NCBI RefSeq assembly: GCF_000374545.1 | Contig: NZ_KB894587.1 | Coordinates: 1 to 64,000 of the forward strand | Length of the DNA: 64,000 bases | Direction: 5' to 3' | Source of the DNA: Anaeromusa acidaminophila DSM 3853 | GTDB taxonomy: Bacteria > Bacillota > Negativicutes > Anaeromusales > Anaeromusaceae | Part shown: one piece after another, positions 34,887-45,885 of the stretch | How positions within the stretch are numbered: position 1 is the stretch's first letter | Layout: each line of letters starts with the position of its first letter | The notes under the pieces: model-generated | Seen by the model: the letters and a program-made list of their open reading frames with translations, nothing else | Told to the model about the DNA's origin: nothing | Database searches by the model: none | Made by a program: the position numbers and the translations under genes

Positions 34887-36269
34887 TCATTCCTGCTCGC
34901 CTTGCCAGCCTTCCAGGCGATGCAAAAACCAAGTTACCGCCAGCATGTCCGCCGCCCCTCCGGGGCTGATATTCCGGGCAATAAACAATGTATCCATCTC
35001 GCTTAGACGTTTCGCCCCACCAGCAGCCAACATGCCTCCTGACGCTAACACCTCTGCTGTCTGCTGACGCACCCAGCCGCGCATGGTTTCTACATCATGG
35101 CGGTTCATAACCGTAGTATCGTCTACTTTCATAAACAGCTCCAACAACGTTTGCACTAAAGCGTCGTTAGTATTTAACCCAGCCGCCAACGCTTCGCGCA
35201 GCTTCGGCAAGCCGCACAAACGCACAGCCGGCAGCGCCGCCGCCACTTCGCCGCGAATACCCTGCACGCCATATTCCAGATACAAGCGCTCCCCAGCAGT
35301 CAGTTCTTCCGGCTTTTTACGGGCCAAAGACTTCAGCTCCGCTTCCACAATGCCTTGCACCATCTCGGCGGCCGCCGCCAAAACCGCTTCTGTTTGCAAT
35401 GTTTTGCCTGCATGCAACACCCAGGCGGCGGCAGCCACAGCCAGTCCCAAGGAAAAGAGCAAGCCTTTTTGCGTATTGACGCCTTGCGTCGCCGTCAACA
35501 TGCGCCGTTCCCCTTCCAGGCCAAGCAGGCGCAGCAAAGGAAGCAGCTCTTCCAGCGTTCCCTTATGGCGAAAAGCCGCTTCCGCACAGCGCCCCAGTGT
35601 ATGAGACAACGCCGCCGAGCTGGACAGAAACGTAAAAATATCCATATCCTTGTGAGCGCCGCTATTCGCGCGATCCACCAAACCTGGCGCTGGCGTGGCA
35701 GCCACTTCATACAGCATGGCCTCTACCGCCAAGGCAGCCAATTTTTCCGCCGCCGGACGTACGCGCCGGGTTTGTTCCGCCTGAAAGGAGAGTAATTTTT
35801 GCTGCACCACTCTTGCAAGCTCCTCTGGCGAGTGGCGTCTTTCCCTCATGCAAAGCCGCGCATCATCCGCACAGAGCATGCACGAACGGCGACGTCCTTG
35901 CTGCTGTCTGGATAAAAGCTGGCCATCTGCCGCAAAAACATCAATATCCCATAAGCGTCCATAAGACCGACTCTCTTCCAGTTCTACCGCTGCCGCCTTA
36001 ATTTCCGCCGCCGCCGCGTCAACGGCCAGTAGAATTTCCGGACCTGTAGCCGCATAGGTTCGCTCCTCCGCCGCCACCCTAAAAAGCAAGGTCAACGCAT
36101 CCGCCGCCGCCCGGCACAATTGCCGTAACACCTCGCCATCTTTGACCGGCCCCGGAATATTCAAGGTAATACTGACTAAGGGCAGCCCTGTGCGCGAACG
36201 CAACGCCTGTTGGCGCTCTTGTCTGGCCTCTTTAGCCGCCAATACCTCTTCTAATGTAAGCTGCTTCAC
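34887..36269 (-). CDS. citXG: CitX-CitG fusion: holo-ACP synthase and prosthetic-group synthase for citrate/citramalate lyase
   Basis: Makes and attaches the 2'-(5''-triphosphoribosyl)-3'-dephospho-CoA group of the lyase acyl carrier protein CitD. Residues 1 to about 165 are CitX-like (TLEEVLAAKEARQERQQALRSR; GRLWDIDVFAADG), the nucleotidyltransferase. Residues 175-455 are CitG-like (LYEVAATPAPGLVDRANSGAHKDMD, ATQGVNTQKGLLFSLG, NTNDALVQTLLELF). Fusion of the two is known in some lactic bacteria and Haemophilus. The 105-base gap from citC carries a hairpin (36322-36352), suggesting lower expression than the lyase subunits. Confidence 0.93.
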   Translation of the reverse strand: MKQLTLEEVLAAKEARQERQQALRSRTGLPLVSITLNIPGPVKDGEVLRQLCRAAADALTLLFRVAAEERTYAATGPEILLAVDAAAAEIKAAAVELEESRSYGRLWDIDVFAADGQLLSRQQQGRRRSCMLCADDARLCMRERRHSPEELARVVQQKLLSFQAEQTRRVRPAAEKLAALAVEAMLYEVAATPAPGLVDRANSGAHKDMDIFTFLSSSAALSHTLGRCAEAAFRHKGTLEELLPLLRLLGLEGERRMLTATQGVNTQKGLLFSLGLAVAAAAWVLHAGKTLQTEAVLAAAAEMVQGIVEAELKSLARKKPEELTAGERLYLEYGVQGIRGEVAAALPAVRLCGLPKLREALAAGLNTNDALVQTLLELFMKVDDTTVMNRHDVETMRGWVRQQTAEVLASGGMLAAGGAKRLSEMDTLFIARNISPGGAADMLAVTWFLHRLEGWQGEQE

Positions 36270-36321
36270 AATATGACCCCTTTACTCAACTGCTTCAAAT
36301 TCCGTTTCAGCATACTACAAC

Positions 36322-36352
36322 AAAGCTGCCTGCACAAGATGCAGGCAGCTTT
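36322..36352 (-). terminator. Hairpin between citC and citXG
   Basis: A perfect 13-bp stem (AAAGCTGCCTGCA and complement) with loop TCTTG on the minus strand, then GTTGTAG. The U tract is weak, so partial termination or mRNA processing is more likely than a full stop. Confidence 0.6.
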
Positions 36353-36374
36353 CTCGTTAAAACAAAATAACAAA

Positions 36375-37430
36375 TCAATGGCGCGAATCGCTGGCGCGAA
36401 TGGCCGCCAACACTTCTGCCGCCGCGGGAGAACGCAAATAGCGCAGCGTGCTCTCCGGCACCAACGGCGCCACCTGCTCCCATCCAGCGCCCTGGCGCAA
36501 GAGTTCCCGAACTCGAGAAGCGCTGATGGGCTCGCTTCCTTCCGCTAAACGCGGTATTTCCACTACCTTTACGCCATAAGACGGCAGTACTTCCTGCAAG
36601 GCTTGATTGTAAGCTCTCGTCACCTCGCAATAAGGCTCCTCGCCGACATAACGCACAGCTACGCCCAACCCTGGCGCAATATAGCTGCCAAAAACATGCG
36701 CGTCCAGGCGAGTCTGGGCAATAACCGTATCTTCGCCACGCGTAAAATAGTCAGGAAACGTCGCTGCGGAAATAATATATTTACCAGCTTCCACTACCCG
36801 TACGTTCGGCAGATGAGCCACCCCCTCCTGTACCAGGCGCAGGCGCACGGCAAAAGGAAACAGAGAACGATCCTCGCTTACTACCAGCACCACCACCCCG
36901 GCGTGCGCTGCCGCCGCTCTGGCAATTACCGCCTGGTGTCCTCGAGTAAAGGGGTTGCAATTGACAACAAGGGCCGCCCTGTCACCGCTCGGCAAATCGC
37001 CCACAGCTGCCGACAAGCGTTTCACTTCCTCTTGAATTGACCCCAGACCGCCTTCCAGCAGCACCGCCTGTGGTTCCACCCGCGCCAGCTCATGAAAACC
37101 CAAGCCGGTAAACTGCGGCGCCGCCGACGGTTTGGTAAAGATGAAAAAATGCCGCACCCCTGCTTCGCCGCCTTGACGCATTAAGGCGGAAACGATGGTC
37201 GCCGTCAGCCCCTCGCCCTGCAAATCCGGATGCACCGCAATATTGCGCAACACTTCGCCGCCCCGGGAACCAGTGGCAATCATCCGACCATCTTGATAAA
37301 GAGCGATCGTATGCTCCACTGATGCCGGATCGTAAGCAAGGCCAAAAGCGGTGAGGAATTCCCTCACCGCTTGACTTTGCCTGGGGTTATTGCGATTGAT
37401 GACCCGTTCTTCCCATTGTCCCCAGGCCAT
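36375..37430 (-). CDS. citC: [Citrate (pro-3S)-lyase] ligase
   Basis: Activates the lyase by acetylating the thiol of the CitD prosthetic group with acetate and ATP. 351 residues: an N-terminal GNAT-like domain (about 20-130, GGEVLRNIAVHPDLQGEGLTATIVSALM) and a nucleotidyltransferase domain with the NCNPFTRGHQAVIARAA (HxGH-type) motif and SASRVRELLRQG. It starts four bases after citF ends, so translation is coupled. Confidence 0.95.
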   Translation of the reverse strand: MAWGQWEERVINRNNPRQSQAVREFLTAFGLAYDPASVEHTIALYQDGRMIATGSRGGEVLRNIAVHPDLQGEGLTATIVSALMRQGGEAGVRHFFIFTKPSAAPQFTGLGFHELARVEPQAVLLEGGLGSIQEEVKRLSAAVGDLPSGDRAALVVNCNPFTRGHQAVIARAAAAHAGVVVLVVSEDRSLFPFAVRLRLVQEGVAHLPNVRVVEAGKYIISAATFPDYFTRGEDTVIAQTRLDAHVFGSYIAPGLGVAVRYVGEEPYCEVTRAYNQALQEVLPSYGVKVVEIPRLAEGSEPISASRVRELLRQGAGWEQVAPLVPESTLRYLRSPAAAEVLAAIRASDSRH

Positions 37431-37433
37431 GAC

Positions 37434-38978
37434 TTACACCTCTTTCGCCTGACGAACCACGTCGATGACCGTGCCGTCGCGGTATTCCACCACGGCGACA
37501 ATTTTCTCGCCGGTTTGCACCGCTGCCGGAGCGCCTGCAATGGCTTCCGCCAGCTCTTTGAGCTGCGCAATGTCTTTTACCGGCAAGCCAGCTTCGGCCA
37601 GACGCTGGCGCAGTTCCGGCCGCCGCGGATTCACAGCGATACCGCGTTCGGTTACCAAGACGTCAATGGATTCTCCCGGCGTCGTCGCCGTGAGCACCTT
37701 ATCGACAATAATCGGCAAGCGTCCGCGCAGCAGATTGGCTACGACAATGGTGACTTTGGCTCCTGCAGCCGCATCGGAGTGACCGCCGCTGCCGCCCATG
37801 ATAACGCCATTGGAACCGGTAACGACATTGACGTTGAAGTCGGTGTCAATTTCCGTGGCTCCTAAGATGACGACGTCCAGCTTGTTAACCAGGCAGCCGC
37901 CGTTAAAAGGACTGGCATATAAGCCGGCGCCTACTTCAATGTGATTGGGGTTATCACGCAACGAGCGCTGCGCTTCCAGGTCAAAGCCCTGCACGTCGAA
38001 GACGCGACGGAAAAGTCCCTTTTCCAGCATATCCACCATATAGCCGGTAATACCGCCCAAAGCGAAGCTTCCTGTAACCTCTTTGGCTTCCATCATTTGG
38101 CGTACAAAATGCGCTGTAGCTAAAGAAGCGCCGCCAGCGCCAGTCTGGAAGGAGAAACCGTCTTGAATGAGACCGGTGGCTTCAATCACCTTGGCGGCGT
38201 TAGTCGCGATCTTGAGACCCACCGGGTCTTTGGTAACCTGGGTCGTGCCGGAAACAATGCCTTTAGGATCGCCAATACTAGGCACAACCACCACCGCATC
38301 TACCCGGGTCTGGGAAATAGAAATGGGCGCCAGCGGGTAGGGTTCAATATGGTCGGTAACCGCCACTACATAGTCGGCATATTCCGCATCGGGAAAGGCA
38401 TAGCCCAGGGAGCCGCAAGCAGTATCGCCGGATACGCCGTTTAGATTGCCGTAATCGTCAGCCGCCGGAGCGGCAATAAAGGCAACGTCGATTTTGAGCT
38501 GCCCGCATTCGATAGCCCGGGCGCGCCCGCCATGAGTGCGTAAAATGACGGGTTTGTCTAAAAGGCCTTTGGAAACGGCTTCCGCCACAGGGCCTGACAT
38601 GTAGTTAGCGTCAAGGCCTGCAACTACGCCGTTTTTAATGTGTTCAATCAACGGCTTATGCACCGGAAAGACGGAGCTAAGGGCGATATTCAGATTTTTA
38701 AGGCCCAGCTTAGCCGCCACATCCAGAACCTGGTTTAAAACGCCGTCGCCATTACGAAAATGATGATGGAACGATAAGGTCATACCATCTTTAATGGGTA
38801 CGCGTTTAAAGATTTCTTCCAAGCTTTCTACTAGTTTATTCTGCCCTGGCAGCATGCGCTTAACCGGCGGAGCCTGGCGCTTGCCATCCGGCACGGTGGC
38901 AAAGGCGCCCGCAAAGGCGTTGACTTTGCCGTACCCAGGGATACTTTCAGGTATTTCACGTCCAATTTGATTTTTCAT
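37434..38978 (-). CDS. citF: Citrate/citramalate lyase alpha subunit (CoA-transferase)
   Basis: Exchanges the acetyl group on the acyl carrier protein for the substrate, giving citramalyl- (or citryl-) ACP. The 514-residue protein has the family patterns KDGMTLSFHHHFRNGDGVL, ILRTHGGRARAIECG and GASLATAHFVRQMMEAK. Context (glutamate mutase and methylaspartase upstream; no oxaloacetate decarboxylase or citrate carrier) indicates that the natural substrate is (S)-citramalate. AGGAGG precedes the ATG by about seven bases. Confidence 0.95.
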   Translation of the reverse strand: MKNQIGREIPESIPGYGKVNAFAGAFATVPDGKRQAPPVKRMLPGQNKLVESLEEIFKRVPIKDGMTLSFHHHFRNGDGVLNQVLDVAAKLGLKNLNIALSSVFPVHKPLIEHIKNGVVAGLDANYMSGPVAEAVSKGLLDKPVILRTHGGRARAIECGQLKIDVAFIAAPAADDYGNLNGVSGDTACGSLGYAFPDAEYADYVVAVTDHIEPYPLAPISISQTRVDAVVVVPSIGDPKGIVSGTTQVTKDPVGLKIATNAAKVIEATGLIQDGFSFQTGAGGASLATAHFVRQMMEAKEVTGSFALGGITGYMVDMLEKGLFRRVFDVQGFDLEAQRSLRDNPNHIEVGAGLYASPFNGGCLVNKLDVVILGATEIDTDFNVNVVTGSNGVIMGGSGGHSDAAAGAKVTIVVANLLRGRLPIIVDKVLTATTPGESIDVLVTERGIAVNPRRPELRQRLAEAGLPVKDIAQLKELAEAIAGAPAAVQTGEKIVAVVEYRDGTVIDVVRQAKEV

Positions 38979-38991
38979 TGTTTCGCCCTCC

Positions 38992-39864
38992 TCAGCCTTG
39001 TTCCGCGACCATGCCCAAACGGCGCGCCAGATGCAGCACGCTCTGCGCCCGCTGCACCACAGGGGCGTCGACCATTTTGCCGCCCAGGGAGGCGACGCCG
39101 GAGCCTTCGGCTTCGGCTCTTCGAATGGCTTCGATCACTTGTTCCGCCCAGTCGACGTCTAGAGCCGTAGGGTTGAAAATGCTGTGGATGGAGTCAATTT
39201 GCCGAGGATTAATAGAAAGTTTTCCTTTAAAACCCAGCGCTTTAGCCAAACGAGTATCCGCCAGCAGACCGGTTTCATCATTGGCATCAGTGAATGGAGT
39301 ATCAATGGACTGAATACCAGCGGCTGCAGCGGCGTTAATCAAAAGCGTCCGGGCCGTATAGATTTCTTGCCCTTCCTTGGTCCGAGCCGCGCCTAAGGCC
39401 GCGGTATAGTCTTCCGCTCCCAAAGCCAGCGCATCTACGCGCGGATGCGCTACGGCAATACGCCCCGCTTCCGCAATCCCCTTGGGAGTTTCTAACAAGG
39501 CAATCAGCTTAACCGGTTTTTGTCCCGGCTTTTCGGCTTTCTCCACCATCGCCGCCACTTGGCAGATATCTTCCGCGCTCTCCACCTTGGGTACTACCAA
39601 GGCGTCCGGACCGCTGGCAACAATCAAGGGAATATCTTGGGCTGCAAAGGTATCCAAAGGGTTAATCCGTACCGTCCGCTCGCTATCGCCGTAGTCGACG
39701 GTACGCAAAGCGTGGCTGACCAGGTAACGAGCCGCGTCTTTTTCGTTCGGCGCTACCGCATCCTCCAGGTCTAAAATAACCGAGTCAGCGCCGAAAACAC
39801 CGCCGTTTTGCAGCATCGCCGGGTTGTTTCCCGGAATAAACAGCATAGTCCGTCTTAATTGCAT
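38992..39864 (-). CDS. citE: Citrate/citramalate lyase beta subunit
   Basis: Cleaves citramalyl-ACP to pyruvate and acetyl-ACP (for citrate: oxaloacetate). A TIM-barrel protein of 290 residues from ATG 39864, which has AGGAG about ten bases upstream and gives the standard N-terminus LRRTMLFIPGNNPAML; a longer frame inside citD is rejected. Motifs DSVILDLEDAVAPNEKDAAR, VVPKVESAEDI and IALLETPKGIAEA contain the Mg and substrate residues. It overlaps citD by ten bases. Confidence 0.96.
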   Translation of the reverse strand: MQLRRTMLFIPGNNPAMLQNGGVFGADSVILDLEDAVAPNEKDAARYLVSHALRTVDYGDSERTVRINPLDTFAAQDIPLIVASGPDALVVPKVESAEDICQVAAMVEKAEKPGQKPVKLIALLETPKGIAEAGRIAVAHPRVDALALGAEDYTAALGAARTKEGQEIYTARTLLINAAAAAGIQSIDTPFTDANDETGLLADTRLAKALGFKGKLSINPRQIDSIHSIFNPTALDVDWAEQVIEAIRRAEAEGSGVASLGGKMVDAPVVQRAQSVLHLARRLGMVAEQG

Positions 39865-40157
39865 GACGCCATCTCTCCTTTCAGCGAAACGCCCGCCCGG
39901 CTTAAAGCCGTTAAGAAGCGGGCCCGAATGGTACAATCCAGCGCCCCTCGGTCTACGGCTTTCACCTGCACGTCAGCCACGCCTTGCTCTTGCGCTACCG
40001 CCTGCAGAGTTTGCCGGATGGCTTCCCCATATTGAATCATGACGATGCTTTCCAGTTCTACGCTCAGGCCCTTGCCCGCTTCTCCCGGACTGACCTGAAT
40101 CATGATGTCTCCTGATTCCAACGTGCCAGCCTGCGCTGCTTTAAGCACACTTGCCAT
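39855..40157 (-). CDS. citD: Citrate/citramalate lyase acyl carrier protein (gamma subunit)
   Basis: Small carrier protein of 100 residues that holds the phosphoribosyl-dephospho-CoA arm. The attachment serine is Ser15 in GTLESGD, matching the family site. The middle (SIVMIQYGEAIRQTLQAV) and end (ALDCTIRARFLTALSRAG) are conserved. It is the first of the lyase genes, 21 bases after the P-loop/SAD gene. Confidence 0.95.
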   Translation of the reverse strand: MASVLKAAQAGTLESGDIMIQVSPGEAGKGLSVELESIVMIQYGEAIRQTLQAVAQEQGVADVQVKAVDRGALDCTIRARFLTALSRAGVSLKGEMASCN

Positions 40158-40178: not shown

Positions 40179-41114
40179 CTATAGGCTGGCTGCATAGCTA
40201 ACGCCGGCAAAACCATCCAGGTTATTGTCCGACGGCGTGCCAACCAGACCAATAATCAAATAACTCTTGCTTTTTTCGTCAAGCTTATATTCATGTAACA
40301 GACGGAAATTTTCGATTTCCTCCGTATTTTTCACATGGGTACGCGGCCCCGTACACAGCCAAGTATCGTCGCCAATACAAATATGATCCTCGTCACTGTA
40401 GAAAACAGGCAGCCCTTCATCAATCATACGCTTTACCTTTTTCTCCACTTCCGCTAAATCCACATCCATATCGACCGGATACTCCAGTACAAAGCCATGA
40501 TGCACGTCACGATGTTCAAACGGCAGAATCGCGCCATATTCGCGCAACAAAATGCGCGCGGTCAAATCCTCCGCCGTATGGGCCATTTTTCGATATTTAA
40601 GCGTTTTCGTCACAACATCTTTAATTTCCTGTGGAAAGGGACCAAACACATTCGGGCGCACAACAATCACTTCGCCGCCCACCCCTAACAGTACGTCGGC
40701 GTTAATATTCAGAGCCGGATACAACAAGTCAAAATGCTCAACAATTACTCGTTTGCCGTGCTCCAGCGCCTTAGAAACAGCTTCCGCCAAAGTATGAAGC
40801 TGCGTAAAGGCCATTTCAAAACGCACATCCATATGGTAGGTGTGGCTGGAAAAAAAGCCTTTATCAATATTCTTTAAAAGCGGCAGCGGACGCACATTAA
40901 CGCCTTCATCATCATTGGTAAGCTCCAGTCCCGGAAACATGCCCTTGATAAGAGAGGATTTACCGGCTCCGGGACCGCCGATGACGCCGATGAGCCGATC
41001 CAAAGGAGACAAATACCGTTCACTGATCTGTTGTCCCAAAATATACATGCGCTTGCGCCCCCACGGGGCAAAGTAACTGGCATACATCAATTGCTCGAGC
41101 ATCATGGATTTCAT
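40179..41114 (-). CDS. P-loop NTPase fused to an alanyl-tRNA-synthetase second-additional-domain-like module
   Basis: Uncharacterised 311-residue soluble protein. Residues about 40-170 form a nucleotide-binding domain with Walker A GGPGAGKSS (46-54) and a Walker B-like KRVIVEHFD (121-129). Residues about 177-290 resemble the tRNA_SAD module of Ala/Thr-tRNA synthetases and AlaX editing proteins: HTAED at 179-183 in place of HTAxH, and CTGPRTHVKNTEEI from Cys254 in place of CGGTHVxNTGEI. The usual zinc pattern (HxxxH...CxxxH) is therefore altered (Asp183; five residues between Cys254 and His260). GGTGG precedes the ATG. It lies between mal and citD inside the fermentation operon, behind a terminator-like hairpin. 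Roles could be trans-editing, a kinase, or an enzyme or assembly factor for the pathway; none is shown. Confidence 0.75.
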   Translation of the reverse strand: MKSMMLEQLMYASYFAPWGRKRMYILGQQISERYLSPLDRLIGVIGGPGAGKSSLIKGMFPGLELTNDDEGVNVRPLPLLKNIDKGFFSSHTYHMDVRFEMAFTQLHTLAEAVSKALEHGKRVIVEHFDLLYPALNINADVLLGVGGEVIVVRPNVFGPFPQEIKDVVTKTLKYRKMAHTAEDLTARILLREYGAILPFEHRDVHHGFVLEYPVDMDVDLAEVEKKVKRMIDEGLPVFYSDEDHICIGDDTWLCTGPRTHVKNTEEIENFRLLHEYKLDEKSKSYLIIGLVGTPSDNNLDGFAGVSYAASL

Positions 41115-41158: not shown

Positions 41159-41201
41159 AAAAAAAGGCAGCGCGAGCGCGCCGAAGCGCGCCCCGCCGCT
41201 G
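41159..41201 (-). terminator. Terminator/attenuator between mal and the P-loop gene
   Basis: Minus strand: CAGCG...GCGCGC, the very stable loop TTCG, GCGCGC...CGCTG (41201-41168), then CC and seven T (41165-41159). A textbook intrinsic terminator inside the operon, 19 bases after mal. It should reduce transcription of citDEFC-citXG relative to the mutase genes. Confidence 0.75.
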
Positions 41202-41219: not shown

Positions 41220-42470
41220 TTACGCCTGGCGTGCCTTGCGCACCGCCAGAATGCGCTCCATTTCATTGTAAACAATCATCAGGCCTTCGTCTACACCCAT
41301 GCCTGGTTTTGCCAGCATTTGCACCGGCTGCGTAGCCATAGCTACATGGACGCAAACCTGCGCCGAGCGGTCTGTTTCATTGCAGGTACCGCCTTGGTAA
41401 GCGCCAACGCCTTTTTTCTTGCAATAGATAACCGATTCAATAATATTGTTGATGCCGCCCAAATCCGGCGTTTTAATTTGCAGCATATCGCCAGCGCCAT
41501 TGTCGGCAAAATATTTAATATCGTCAAATGTGTTGCACCATTCATCAGCCACCACTTGCACGCCAATTTTTTCCGCATGCAGGCGGGCAGTCAATTCTTT
41601 CAGCGCCAACATCTGTTTTTCCCGCTCTTCCATGTCCATAGGGCCTTCAATGCGCAGCTGCAACGGAGCCGCAGCGGCTTCGGCTTTGCGGAAAAAGTCC
41701 ACCATTTTATCCAGATCATTATTGAAGGCAATACCGATCGTGCCGTATACGTCAATGTGCAGCACCGGCTGGTAGTCTTCGCTGGTGCGCAACTGCATCA
41801 CCCGATTTTTCAGCCAAGTAATGTACTCCAGCAGCAAGCCGCCATCGTTGCCCAACTTGGTTTCCACATGATTGATCAATGCATGAGGCAGCACTTGAGC
41901 GCCTTTGATGATCATCTTATCGGAATTCTCATAACGGTTGTCGCCAGACTGCGTAAAGATCGGAATTTCTTTTTCGCTAACCGTTGTGCCGTATTCCTCC
42001 GCAATGACTTCACACATTAGTTTATGTTTGCCTTTAGCCACAGCGTCTAGAATCGCTTGGGTTACGCCGTAACGCAACGCCGTATGGATGGACTTGCCGG
42101 TTTTTGCATCCTTCATGGAGTCGATTTCTTCCGCCAAAGCCTTGAAGGAATTCAGTTCACGACCTACCAAACGAGGCTTGATTTCCTTTTCAATCACCGG
42201 AATGAAATCCTTCGCCAAGAACAAGGGGTCCCGTCCGCCGGCGCCGCTGTACTGCACGGCAGCGCAGTCGCCATAAGCAACTTGGCCGTCTTCCAGCACA
42301 AGCATAACGGACACGGCTTCGCCGGACTGGCGAATAGCCTGGAAACCGGGAGTTACGGGGTCGCCAATATAAGTAAAGCCATCATGGTCGGCGCCTTTTT
42401 TAATGGCCCGCTGATCGTCAAAATAAAAACCAGTAAGAGCTTTCGAGCAAACAACATCAACAATTTTCAT
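41220..42470 (-). CDS. mal: Methylaspartate ammonia-lyase (methylaspartase)
   Basis: Removes ammonia from (2S,3S)-3-methylaspartate to give mesaconate; enolase superfamily. The 416-residue protein closely follows the clostridial enzyme: N-terminus MKIVDVVCSKALTGFYFDDQ, GDCAAVQYSGAGGRDPLFL, metal ligands in HIDVYGTIG, RIEGPMD and VADEWCNT, the catalytic lysine in LQIKTPDLGG, and GGTCNETDRSA. AAGGAG lies about nine bases before ATG 42470; the frame is open 25 codons further but without support. Preceded by a stable hairpin after glmE. Confidence 0.97.
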   Translation of the reverse strand: MKIVDVVCSKALTGFYFDDQRAIKKGADHDGFTYIGDPVTPGFQAIRQSGEAVSVMLVLEDGQVAYGDCAAVQYSGAGGRDPLFLAKDFIPVIEKEIKPRLVGRELNSFKALAEEIDSMKDAKTGKSIHTALRYGVTQAILDAVAKGKHKLMCEVIAEEYGTTVSEKEIPIFTQSGDNRYENSDKMIIKGAQVLPHALINHVETKLGNDGGLLLEYITWLKNRVMQLRTSEDYQPVLHIDVYGTIGIAFNNDLDKMVDFFRKAEAAAAPLQLRIEGPMDMEEREKQMLALKELTARLHAEKIGVQVVADEWCNTFDDIKYFADNGAGDMLQIKTPDLGGINNIIESVIYCKKKGVGAYQGGTCNETDRSAQVCVHVAMATQPVQMLAKPGMGVDEGLMIVYNEMERILAVRKARQA

Positions 42471-42548
42471 GAGAACACACTCCTTTTTGTCTTTGGAGCC
42501 GCCAGCAAGACCAGCAGCTTCCCCATAATTGACAAACGCCGCCACGCA

Positions 42549-42607: not shown

Positions 42608-44059
42608 TTAGCGCGGGCGTCCTACAAGGCGTCCTTTAGAAATGGCGTAAATATCGTCGATAACCATCTGGAAGCTGGCCGGGCGGCGTTCCGCTTTGGC
42701 CCGCTCTTCGATTTTACCGCGATGGAAATCAATGATGTCCTGCGTAAAGGGCAAGTTGCCGCAATCGAAGAGGCGCACGGCGCCGTGATGGTCACGAGCC
42801 GGCAGAATCTTATTGATGGCATGGTTGCTGGGGGCAAACGGAACATCCAGTACGCCGGCTTCAAAAGCCCGCACCGTACCAACGGCAATATCTCCTTCAC
42901 CCAATTCCAAAACCTTATCCACGATGCAGCGGGTTTCCGCTTTGATCATAGCGATTTCGTCTTCCAACTGTTGTGTAGCCGGGAAGGTCTGATCCGCCAG
43001 CATATTAATCATCTGCTTGGTGGTGCGCAGGCCCATGGCATTAGCTTCTTTTGTAGGAATGCCCAGTGCTTCATGCGGCGTTTTCACGATAACTTTGGTC
43101 GCTTTTGCAAAAGCAGCAGCCGCAGCACCCCAGGAAATAACGGCGAACGCCTTGGCTTCATCCTGCGGGAAGCCGCCCATCCATTGATGGAAAACCGTAG
43201 TCAGCGTGCAGCCTTCATAGCCGAATTTCGCGAAATACTCTTCAGCCAGCGATTCTAACGAACGAATGGCTGCGATATCCTGCACCAGATTGCCGCATTG
43301 GCCATAGCCGAGAGTAATGTTTTTAACGCCTTGTTCGGCAGCCAAAATGCCTTCGATAATCGCCACAGCATGAGAAATGCTCGGCGGCACCAAGGTACCT
43401 GTCAAAGGTCCGAAGGGCTCGCGGTTAATTTCAATGCCATGCTCGGCATAGAGACCTACTAAACGGTCTGCATACTGCCAATCAAGAATGGTCTGTTCCA
43501 AAGATACGCTCTTAGCGTAAGGAATATTGTAGGAAATACCGCCGCCCTCGTACGAAGTAAAGCCGCCGGCCAGCGTAATTTCCGTCAACAGCCGCGCATC
43601 CGGCGTACCATGACGCACCTGAATGGGACCATCCACTTTTTCGGCCAATTTACGGACCGCATGCACGCCATGATTGACGGCAGGGAAACCGTTGAGTAAA
43701 GAACGGCCAGCCTGTTTGCTCTCCTCAATACCTACCTGAGCTTCTTTGTATTGATTTTGACGGGTGTAGCTGTCAATCGTAGTTGGCAACAGATCGGCTT
43801 CCCCTTCAGTGCGCAGGAAGTTCAGCAATTCAATATGCTGGTCCAAAAGCGCAACGCCAGCACGAGGCTGCGTCAAGGTACGGCCTTCTTTTTTAGCTTT
43901 TACAAGCTGTTTGGAAAAATGCTTGCGCGCCGGGATGGTTTCATGGTATTTGACGGCTTCGTCAAAATCCACCTCCGCACCTGTAGGCCATTGGGCCAAA
44001 ATCTCTTTGCGCATTGCGAAAAATTCGTCATGGGACCATTTCTTATTTTTCAATTCCAC
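42608..44059 (-). CDS. glmE: Glutamate mutase (methylaspartate mutase) epsilon subunit
   Basis: Catalytic TIM-barrel subunit of the adenosylcobalamin-dependent mutase that turns L-glutamate into (2S,3S)-3-methylaspartate. 483 residues, the usual length, with [12 protein letters not shown] holding the glutamate-binding arginine, [14 protein letters not shown] and the Glu/Arg-containing substrate loop. The start is GTG at 44059 with GGAGG eight bases before it, overlapping glmL by ten bases. Confidence 0.97.
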
Positions 44060-45447
44060 GCTGATTGCCTCCGTTTCAGATATTTTTTCATCATCCGCAG
44101 AGCCACCTCGGGCTGTTCTTCCGACAGAAGCCCCATGGCGGAGAGAATGTATTCACCATCAATATAGTAATCACATTGTTTGGGTTTTAAATATTCCGCA
44201 GTCGCAGTGTCGTAACGAATGCCTTCAAGAATGCATTCCGGCCGTTCATGATGCACGATAACGCCGCCGGTGCCGATGACTTTCTCAACCGTAGTCAAGT
44301 CTTTGCCAACCTGCACGAATACCTCGCCTACGCAGCTGAAGACCGATTCGATTTTTCCTACATGGCGCTGCGCCGCCACTTTGGTGCACGCCCATCCAAG
44401 AGCATCCTCTATAGCCTGCTCCCGTGGCGTTTGAGGCAGCGTATCCACCTGGTTCTCCACCAAATGGCAGTACGCCGCAACCTCTTCTTCGCTGACGCCA
44501 GCCTTCTGAGCCAGCACGGGTGCGCCAGCCGCCTTCAATAAAGCAGTCGCGCTGTAGCGCATGCCCAAATCTCCTTCCACCGTACGCTTGGCAAAAGGTT
44601 CGGGCAGGCCCCGCATGGTCACGGTCGGCTGTTTGGGCTCTCCTTTGGCAATGGAATATAAGTCAGTAGTTGCACCGCCAATATCCACAATCATTAGATC
44701 GCCCCAGCCGCTTTCATGCGGCGTTCCAGTGCCCAGCAGCTCTGCTGCTTTGAGTACAGCCGCAGGGGTGGGCATCATCATCTTGTCAATAAATTTGTTG
44801 GCTTTATTCAAGCCTTTCGCTTCGATAATGCGCCGTAAAAATAAATCTCTGATGGCGCCCCGAGCAGGGTCAATGTTCAGTTCGCCCAAGCGCGGCATGA
44901 CATTTTCCGTATGCACCACTTCGGTCATAACCTTGCTTAAAATCCCAACCACCTGGGGCGTCACTGATTTATTGCCTGCCACCAGCACCGGCACATCCAT
45001 GCCCAGCGTGCATAACATGCGGGCATTATGGAGAATGACCTCCTTGTTGCCCCCGTCCGTACCGCCGGCCAAAAGAATAATTTCCGGCTTTAAGGCTGCA
45101 ATTTCTTCAATTTCGTACTCGCTGAGTTCGTTGCAGTATACGCCCAGCACCTTGGCTCCAGCCCCTAAGGCCGCTCGCTTCGCAGCCTCAGCCGTCAATT
45201 CCGGCACCAGGCCAATGGCTACCATTTTCAGGCCGCCTGCAGCGCTGGAGCAGCCCAGCACCCGCTGAAACTCCAGCTTGCCTGTCTGTGCAAAAAGCAC
45301 ATCCAAGCCTTCCTGCAACCCTTCCATGATGTCGGTCTCTACCGTGGTAATGCCCCGTGCCGTGCCCAAAATTTCTTCCTTCTCGACATCTACAGCCGTA
45401 AGCTTGGTATACGTACTGCCAAAGTCAATGAGTAGCACATGGCTCAT
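44050..45447 (-). CDS. glmL: Glutamate mutase reactivating factor GlmL (MutL)
   Basis: ATP-dependent chaperone-like protein that replaces damaged cobalamin in the mutase. 465 residues of the ASKHA type: phosphate loop [16 protein letters not shown], second phosphate motif [13 protein letters not shown], and adenosine region [13 protein letters not shown]. It lies between the two mutase subunit genes, the arrangement of the clostridial mut operon. It overlaps glmE, so translation is coupled. Confidence 0.95.
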
Positions 45448-45468: not shown

Positions 45469-45885
45469 TTACGCCCGGGCCAGGTCCTGCTTCAAGTCTT
45501 CAATTACCTGGTCTGGCAAAATGCCTGGTTCATATACACGGTCATAACCCATGGCAAGGAATTTTTCTTTTACTTCGGTGAAATCGGTCTTGCCTACAAC
45601 CAGGTTACCGCCTACATACAGCTTAATGCCGCCGATGCCAGCTTCTTTGCAAGCATCCCGCAGGCCCCGGCAGTCAATTTCGCCGTGTCCATAGAGAGAC
45701 GCCACCAAGATGGCCTTCGCATCGGTTTCAATCGCCGCATTGACGAATTCCTGCTGCGGCACCAGCACGCCCAGATTGACCACCTCAAAACCTGCCGCCC
45801 GTAAGGCATGGGCCAGAATTTTGTTGCCCACTGCATGACAGTCGGCGCCGATAACTCCCAAGACGACCTTATCACTGTTTTCCAT
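45469..45885 (-). CDS. glmS: Glutamate mutase sigma subunit (B12-binding)
   Basis: Binds adenosylcobalamin base-off with His17 of the DxHxxG motif ([12 protein letters not shown]) replacing the lower ligand. 138 residues with [10 protein letters not shown] and the nucleotide-tail motif YVGGNLVVG, as in the family. First mutase gene of the operon, 36 bases after gltP. Confidence 0.97.

Follow-up and report, generated by a model that had tools for sequence, protein, structure and literature searches.

The window analysed here, a 64,000-nucleotide stretch of the Anaeromusa acidaminophila genome, carries an operon of the methylaspartate pathway of glutamate fermentation, a textbook B12 pathway, and within it a gene for a two-domain protein, referred to below as ATPase-SAD. 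The N-terminal P-loop half is, according to its modelled structure, a TsaE-type ATPase domain, an assignment that is new here; the C-terminal half is predicted to be a SAD-type domain. The genomic association of ATPase-SAD with GlmE, the glutamate mutase epsilon subunit, is near-exclusive. The protein looks like a helper or quality-control factor rather than a missing pathway enzyme, and the explanation preferred here, put forward tentatively, is a dedicated ATP-dependent accessory protein of GlmE.

The gene and its neighbours lie on the minus strand in the order dicarboxylate/amino-acid transporter (a label given by resemblance), glmS, glmL, glmE, mal, the ATPase-SAD gene, citD, citE, citF, citC and citXG. 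The features of this region are as follows:

45469..45885, minus strand: glmS, B12-binding subunit of glutamate mutase (Pfam B12-binding)
44050..45447, minus strand: glmL (MutL), mutase accessory protein (Pfam MutL)
42608..44059, minus strand: glmE, glutamate mutase epsilon subunit (Pfam; E 1.6e-216 against 6h9e_B, gapless over 1-482)
41220..42545, minus strand: mal, 3-methylaspartate ammonia-lyase (Pfam MAAL_N/MAAL_C)
41165..41199, minus strand: strong hairpin, GC-rich and with a run of seven T after it, in the gap from mal to the ATPase-SAD gene (-29.6 kcal/mol, z -2.6)
40179..41114, minus strand: ATPase-SAD coding sequence, 311 aa, TsaE-type P-loop domain and SAD-type domain
34887..40157, minus strand: citD, citE, citF, citC and citXG, probable citramalate lyase and maturation genes (Pfam)

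The ATG of the 311 aa open reading frame is preceded by the Shine-Dalgarno-like GAGGTGGAGCG; the translation of the opposite (plus) strand is riddled with stops. The gene is single-copy in the A. acidaminophila genome. A preliminary description of this DNA had given the coordinates correctly and left the strand, which is minus, unstated; its placement of the gene between mal and citD is borne out, with mal (41220-42545) on one side and citD (39855-40157), across a gap of 21 bp, on the other. The hairpin at 41165-41199 may be a partial terminator reducing the expression of the ATPase-SAD gene and citDEF. The citramalate reading of the cit genes is taken from the cluster text of PMC4682846. The CitX and CitG domains occupy one fused ORF (34887-36269, minus strand).

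The N-terminal half contains the following features:

40635..41087, minus strand: TsaE-type ATPase domain, about residues 10-160 (AF2, Foldseek and Pfam)
40953..40979, minus strand: Walker A motif GGPGAGKSS, residues 46-54
40821..40835, minus strand: HMDVR (residues 94-98), aligned with the TsaE HxD(L)YR motif; H94 and D96 are invariant (n = 133)

The AF2 model of residues 6-165 alone has a pLDDT of 90.9. In a Foldseek search with this half, the top six matches are all TsaE/YjeE (E 1.8e-5 to 9.6e-5, probability 1.00, TM about 0.5-0.6), and the first non-TsaE match, NSF, follows at E 3.1e-3, a gap of about 30-fold in E. TsaE (PF02367) is also the commonest Pfam match, a weak one that is seen in 31 of 60 members at E <= 0.1 (best 7.3e-4), stays short of the curated cut-off and is not listed for the window protein. 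The profile alignment pairs TYHMD of ATPase-SAD with LYHFD of TsaE. The profile-profile score against TsaE is 52.5, but one ABC ATPase alone comes to 51 by sequence, and the kinship with TsaE is therefore based on fold. A separate true TsaE gene is present elsewhere in the same genome, and the N-terminal half is, by predicted fold, TsaE-type without being a TsaE. A P-loop kinase reading, first prompted by NDD and R motifs, was rejected, as the structure search yields TsaE and not kinases; of the comparison with P-loop kinases proposed earlier, the P-loop NTPase stood and the kinase likeness did not, the top structures being TsaE/YjeE. No Pfam match to a G3E/ArgK GTPase domain of the MeaB/MMAA type was found, and the best fold match is TsaE.

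The C-terminal half comprises:

40239..40634, minus strand: SAD-type domain, about residues 161-292 (Pfam, Foldseek and profile comparison)
40566..40580, minus strand: HTAED (residues 179-183), corresponding to HxxxH, with Asp in place of the second His
40335..40355, minus strand: CTGPRTH (residues 254-260), corresponding to CxxxH but lengthened by two inserted residues; Pro257 and Arg258 are invariant

Pfam tRNA_SAD (PF07973) matches residues 247-283 of the window protein with E 5.2e-5 and 23.6 bits, against a curated cut-off of 24; it reaches 26.7-26.8 bits, above the cut-off, when the same and congeneric genomes are searched, and matches 49 of 60 diverse homologues at E <= 0.1. The AlphaFold2 model, for which 60 homologues were used, has a pLDDT of 87.5. 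Foldseek places AlaX-M at the top (9iuw and 2e1b, E 1-4e-5, probability 1.00), and ThrRS 6vu9 likewise has a probability of 1.00. Comparison with profiles of the AlaRS and ThrRS SAD regions of related genomes gave probabilities of 94.9 and 94.7, respectively, with crossed controls below 1, the E-values of such pairwise comparisons not being database-calibrated. By profile and structure comparison, the C-terminal half is thus predicted to have the SAD fold of AlaRS, ThrRS and AlaX. The fusion of a P-loop NTPase with a SAD-type editing domain, claimed in the preliminary description, is supported by Pfam, Foldseek and profiles, and the structure comparison suggested there found SAD topology (AlaX-M/ThrRS in Foldseek) rather than a fold lacking it.

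The profile alignment matches HTAED to the HTASH of ThrRS and CTGPRTH to C(A)GPH / CGGTH, CTGPRTH having two inserted residues, which add the invariant Arg258. The zinc-ligand pattern of AlaX/AlaRS, HxxxH and CxxxH, is not present; essentially all homologues have HxxxD and C-x5-H. The order of AlaRS-type zinc motifs, with Asp for His and a longer Cys-His spacing, had been read correctly from the start, and GGPGAGKSS at 46-54, HTAED at 179-183 and CTGPRTHVKNTEEI from residue 254 are all present. The pocket of this half stays polar and probably binds metal; it consists of H179, D183, C254 and H260, with R258 in addition. In the Prevotella nigrescens homologue (L191:9001-9942), Gln takes the place of H260 and Glu that of D183, with R258 retained, so that metal ligation by the pocket may not be universal. 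The SAD-type domain is acidic, with a mean net charge of -7; since the AlaRS/ThrRS SAD regions are acidic too, surface charge does not decide tRNA binding.

A scan of GTDB species genomes showed that 262 of 294 candidate stretches encode a relative of ATPase-SAD, and the ORF is therefore not a chance one; 80 were kept. Within the class of A. acidaminophila, the protein is present in 22 of 61 genomes, its own genome counted. G46, G49, G51, K52, S53, H179, T180, A181, E182, C254, G256, P257, R258 and H260 are invariant in 102 collected homologues, and D183 occurs in 100 of them. In a wider set of 133 homologues, which includes a few duplicate records, the invariant residues are K52, S53, D68, D69, H94, D96, E126, H127, H179, E182, C254, P257 and R258, with H260 found in 131 and D183 in 128. 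The copies of Peptoclostridium acidaminophilum and Prevotella nigrescens are labelled as hypothetical proteins in RefSeq. No family in NCBIfam or PHROGs covers ATPase-SAD, a PDB sequence search returned P-loop noise only, and no paper naming the protein was found among the open-access papers searched; the cluster text and legends of PMC4682846 make no mention of it. The gene is duplicated in tandem at L131:5994-7781 (genome G345) and likewise in G167, and two adjoining ORFs at G361:C20:14589-15475 cover residues 1-211 and 211-294, indicating a split gene or a frameshift.

The presence of the protein was surveyed in 399 Bacillota genomes that are at least 90% complete. ATPase-SAD, counted at matches better than 1e-10, was found in 73 genomes; 87 have GlmE or a GlmE-like gene and 72 have both it and ATPase-SAD (Fisher p 6e-63), and Mal was found in 76, in 63 of them together with ATPase-SAD (p 3e-49); genome relatedness inflates both p-values. 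The sole genome with ATPase-SAD and no GlmE match (G065) has the protein as fragments, and 10 of the 73 genomes with GlmE and Mal are without ATPase-SAD. The ATPase-SAD gene and mal share a contig in 56 cases, 50 of which place them within 15 kb, and glmE is the steadiest genomic companion. The survey of co-occurrence with glmE and mal, suggested beforehand, finds the homologues overwhelmingly in methylaspartate-pathway loci, not mostly away from them. In pairwise distances over 49 five-gene loci, ATPase-SAD correlates best with GlmE (r 0.90, partial 0.53), followed by GlmL (0.87, partial 0.28), and is lowest with Mal (0.68, partial -0.26); this mirror-tree result is only suggestive, because genes that share an operon do not give independent distances.

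The gene lies between mal and citD in Negativicutes relatives. Other Bacillota show one layout with the gene after mal and AtuA/DUF4387, a second with the gene after mal and 2-hydroxyacyl-CoA dehydratase-like genes, and a third with the gene opposite citDEF and beside citC. In many methylaspartate clusters, a pair of AtuA-family and DUF4387 genes stands directly after mal, replacing or alongside citDEF, as at L022, L023, L067 and L073, at L191:7134-8855 and, in E. coli, at L189:12595-14279; PMC4682846 remarks on a DUF1446 gene there. In Desulfotomaculum relatives (L028, L036, L045), genes like the D component of 2-hydroxyglutaryl-CoA dehydratase and BadF-type activator genes separate mal from the ATPase-SAD gene. 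The E. coli glm island has the order glmS-glmL-glmE-mal-AtuA-DUF4387-transporter-fumarase-cobO, and the ATPase-SAD gene was not found in the 21 kb around its glmE. The unannotated genes upstream of this island were rejected as a diverged copy, being unrelated by eye and having no P-loop or CxGPR motif.

Nine genomes encode ATPase-SAD together with a diverged GlmE-like protein (33-47% identity) and are without Mal. No GlmS orthologue was found in the nine, where B12-domain paralogues reach about 23-39% only (control 64%), and seven of them have no GlmL-type match at E <= 1e-10, such matches occurring only in G107 and G143. The loci inspected are four from the nine genomes, each with an intact ATPase-SAD copy (L124, L125, L126, L129); L127 (genome G143), where the copy is truncated; and a further locus, L128 (genome G128), with Mal on a different contig. 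In GlmE, where the numbering of the window protein is that of Clostridium cochlearium, positions 66, 100, 149, 171, 177 and 181 are active-site residues of the mutase, with catalytic roles. All six are replaced in the GlmE-like proteins of L124 and L129; those of L125 and L127 retain 149 alone, and those of L126 and L128 have a replacement at 177 alone. The GlmE-like proteins of L124:9317-10618, L129:6815-8110, L125:14204-15610 and L127:6865-8322 keep the conserved C-terminus and have most mutase active-site residues gone; they are possible pseudoenzymes. The ATPase-SAD copies of L124, L125, L126, L128 and L129 retain K52, H94, D96, E126, H179, C254, R258 and H260, the L125 copy varying at several secondary sites; at L127, the P-loop half alone is left, as a 165 aa protein encoded near the GlmE-like gene.

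Downstream at the inspected loci there are typically rph, rdgB and a gene for a yfcE-like phosphoesterase, and the upstream neighbours are murI (L127, L128) or a GntR gene (L124, L129), the labels murI, rph, rdgB and yfcE being assigned by eye beyond the Pfam-tested representatives. The GlmE-like gene may be adjacent or as much as about 13 kb away (L126). When the tree is rooted at its midpoint, the copies of L124/L129 and of L126/L128 nest among pathway-associated or rph-linked copies, which suggests that the loss of the pathway in these lineages is derived. It is conceivable, if somewhat doubtful, that the TsaE-type ATPase-SAD protein and a GlmE-fold protein form a two-component system able to outlive mutase catalysis; the pair would have a function of its own, since the eroded GlmE-like protein would have been kept as a partner once GlmS, GlmL and Mal were lost; this function might be a form of quality control connected with tRNA or glutamate, next to murI and rph.

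A partner of the GlmE fold is the simplest account of the presence pattern. It is favoured because the presence of ATPase-SAD tracks GlmE (72 of 73 genomes) more than Mal (63 of 73), and it is favoured over simple clearance of 3-methylaspartyl-tRNA because ATPase-SAD is retained without Mal and a GlmS orthologue beside a GlmE-like gene that, in the loci inspected, has all or some of its mutase residues replaced, with its own pocket intact. Among the options listed in the preliminary description, the nucleotide-dependent assembly or regulatory factor is accordingly ranked first, with due caution, and narrowed to GlmE and a TsaE-type ATPase. The ATPase cycle would open and close ATPase-SAD on GlmE, the SAD pocket would hold or hydrolyse a small carboxylated ligand, whose carboxylate Arg258 would bind, and GlmE would be assembled, gated or repaired with this help. 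We infer ATP hydrolysis, metal binding and physical contact with GlmE, as well as the nature of the ligand. Two points of background count against a GlmE partner: recombinant glutamate mutase is active without ATPase-SAD, and what the SAD fold is established to do is hydrolyse aminoacyl-tRNA. A further one is that GlmL already has a proposed reactivation role (PMC4682846). As a precedent for the accessory role, the P-loop proteins MeaB/MMAA load or repair a B12 mutase (PMC10481361, PMC10356863). ATPase-SAD is not obligatory for mutase function, since 10 of 73 genomes with GlmE and Mal and the 21 kb of E. coli are without the gene.

Trans-editing is better backed by biochemical precedent, since aminoacyl-tRNA hydrolysis is what SAD domains carry out and the deacylases FthB and ProXp-x exist; it is a serious rival, though a somewhat less probable role. 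AspRS would mistakenly load the 3-methylaspartate made by glutamate mutase onto tRNA-Asp, and ATPase-SAD would hydrolyse the resulting 3-methylaspartyl-tRNA, or some other mischarged tRNA. The beta-carboxylate would be recognised by Arg258, which lies in the lengthened zinc loop, and the TsaE-type ATPase would govern how the tRNA is engaged or released. The SAD fold found by Pfam, profile and structure and the nearly invariant pocket residues are consistent with this role, as are the position of the gene in a pathway producing a non-canonical Asp analogue and the tRNA links of the TsaE-type domain and, in some lineages, of the rph neighbours. FthB, a fluorothreonyl-tRNA deacylase, and ProXp-x act on tRNAs charged with non-canonical amino acids (PMC11295145). 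Trans-editing does not, however, predict retention beside an inactive-looking GlmE, with the pocket intact in genomes that have neither Mal nor a GlmS orthologue; the absence of ATPase-SAD from the 10 genomes mentioned and from the stretch of the E. coli glm island that was inspected and the change of H260 to Gln in Prevotella also argue against it, and no evidence of AspRS accepting 3-methylaspartate was found among the open-access papers searched.

An ATP-dependent regulator or ligand sensor, independent of both tRNA hydrolysis and mutase maturation, is unlikely. Its SAD pocket would sense an amino acid or dicarboxylate of the pathway, and the signal would pass through the ATPase to GlmE, gene expression or translation; the many invariant charged residues of both halves, the retention with an altered-active-site GlmE-like gene near murI/rph or GntR genes, and the GntR regulators near many loci would suit it, but ATPase-SAD has no DNA-binding or known sensory domain. 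It is very improbable that ATPase-SAD supplies the missing mesaconate hydratase activity or acts as a different carbon-pathway enzyme, as its position between mal and citD had suggested. Halves of class I fumarase (mesaconase) are clustered with the ATPase-SAD gene in many relatives, including Pelosinus, Sporomusa and Prevotella, and in Prevotella nigrescens the fumarase is found immediately downstream; a candidate class I fumarase for this role is also encoded in the A. acidaminophila genome, on contig C16, so that the mesaconase step considered missing in the preliminary description need not be vacant and the proposal of ATPase-SAD as the mesaconase is not upheld. Pfam gave no match to the Fumerase domains PF05681/PF05683 or to another hydratase family in ATPase-SAD or its homologues. 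Because a class I fumarase adjoins the homologues and occurs in the same genome, ATPase-SAD does not fill this step.

A conserved gene of methylaspartate operons is still annotated as 'hypothetical', although the pathway is a textbook one. As a mutase helper, its product would add an unrecognised ATPase type to B12-enzyme maturation; as an editing enzyme, it would show how 3-methylaspartate-making cells protect translation, an Asp-analogue case not found described in the open-access papers searched.

ATPase-SAD resembles several known systems in part. MeaB, a G3E GTPase, with MMAA, and the GlmL/MutL reactivase, an ASKHA-type protein, share with it the proposed part of a nucleotide-dependent helper encoded with a B12 mutase, but are without a SAD domain. 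FthB and ProXp-x offer the idea of a deacylase acting against tRNA mischarged with a non-canonical amino acid; unlike ATPase-SAD, they have ProXp-related folds of the INS superfamily and no ATPase half. The C-terminal fold, with the HxxxH and CxxxH positions in matching order and alignment, is like that of AlaX-M (PDB 2e1b, 9iuw) and of the AlaRS/ThrRS SAD (PF07973), whereas HxxxD, C-x5-H, the added invariant Arg258, a shorter domain in which the segment before the Cys strand is missing, the TsaE-type N-terminal half and the linkage with GlmE set ATPase-SAD apart from them. With TsaE/YjeE, the t6A tRNA-modification ATPase (PDB 6n9a, 6s84, 1fl9, 1htw), it shares the N-terminal fold, the Walker A and HxD motifs and, by eye, a glutamate after a later strand (VEH in ATPase-SAD, IEW in TsaE); it differs from TsaE in having HxDxRF in place of HxDxYR and in its fusion to a SAD domain.
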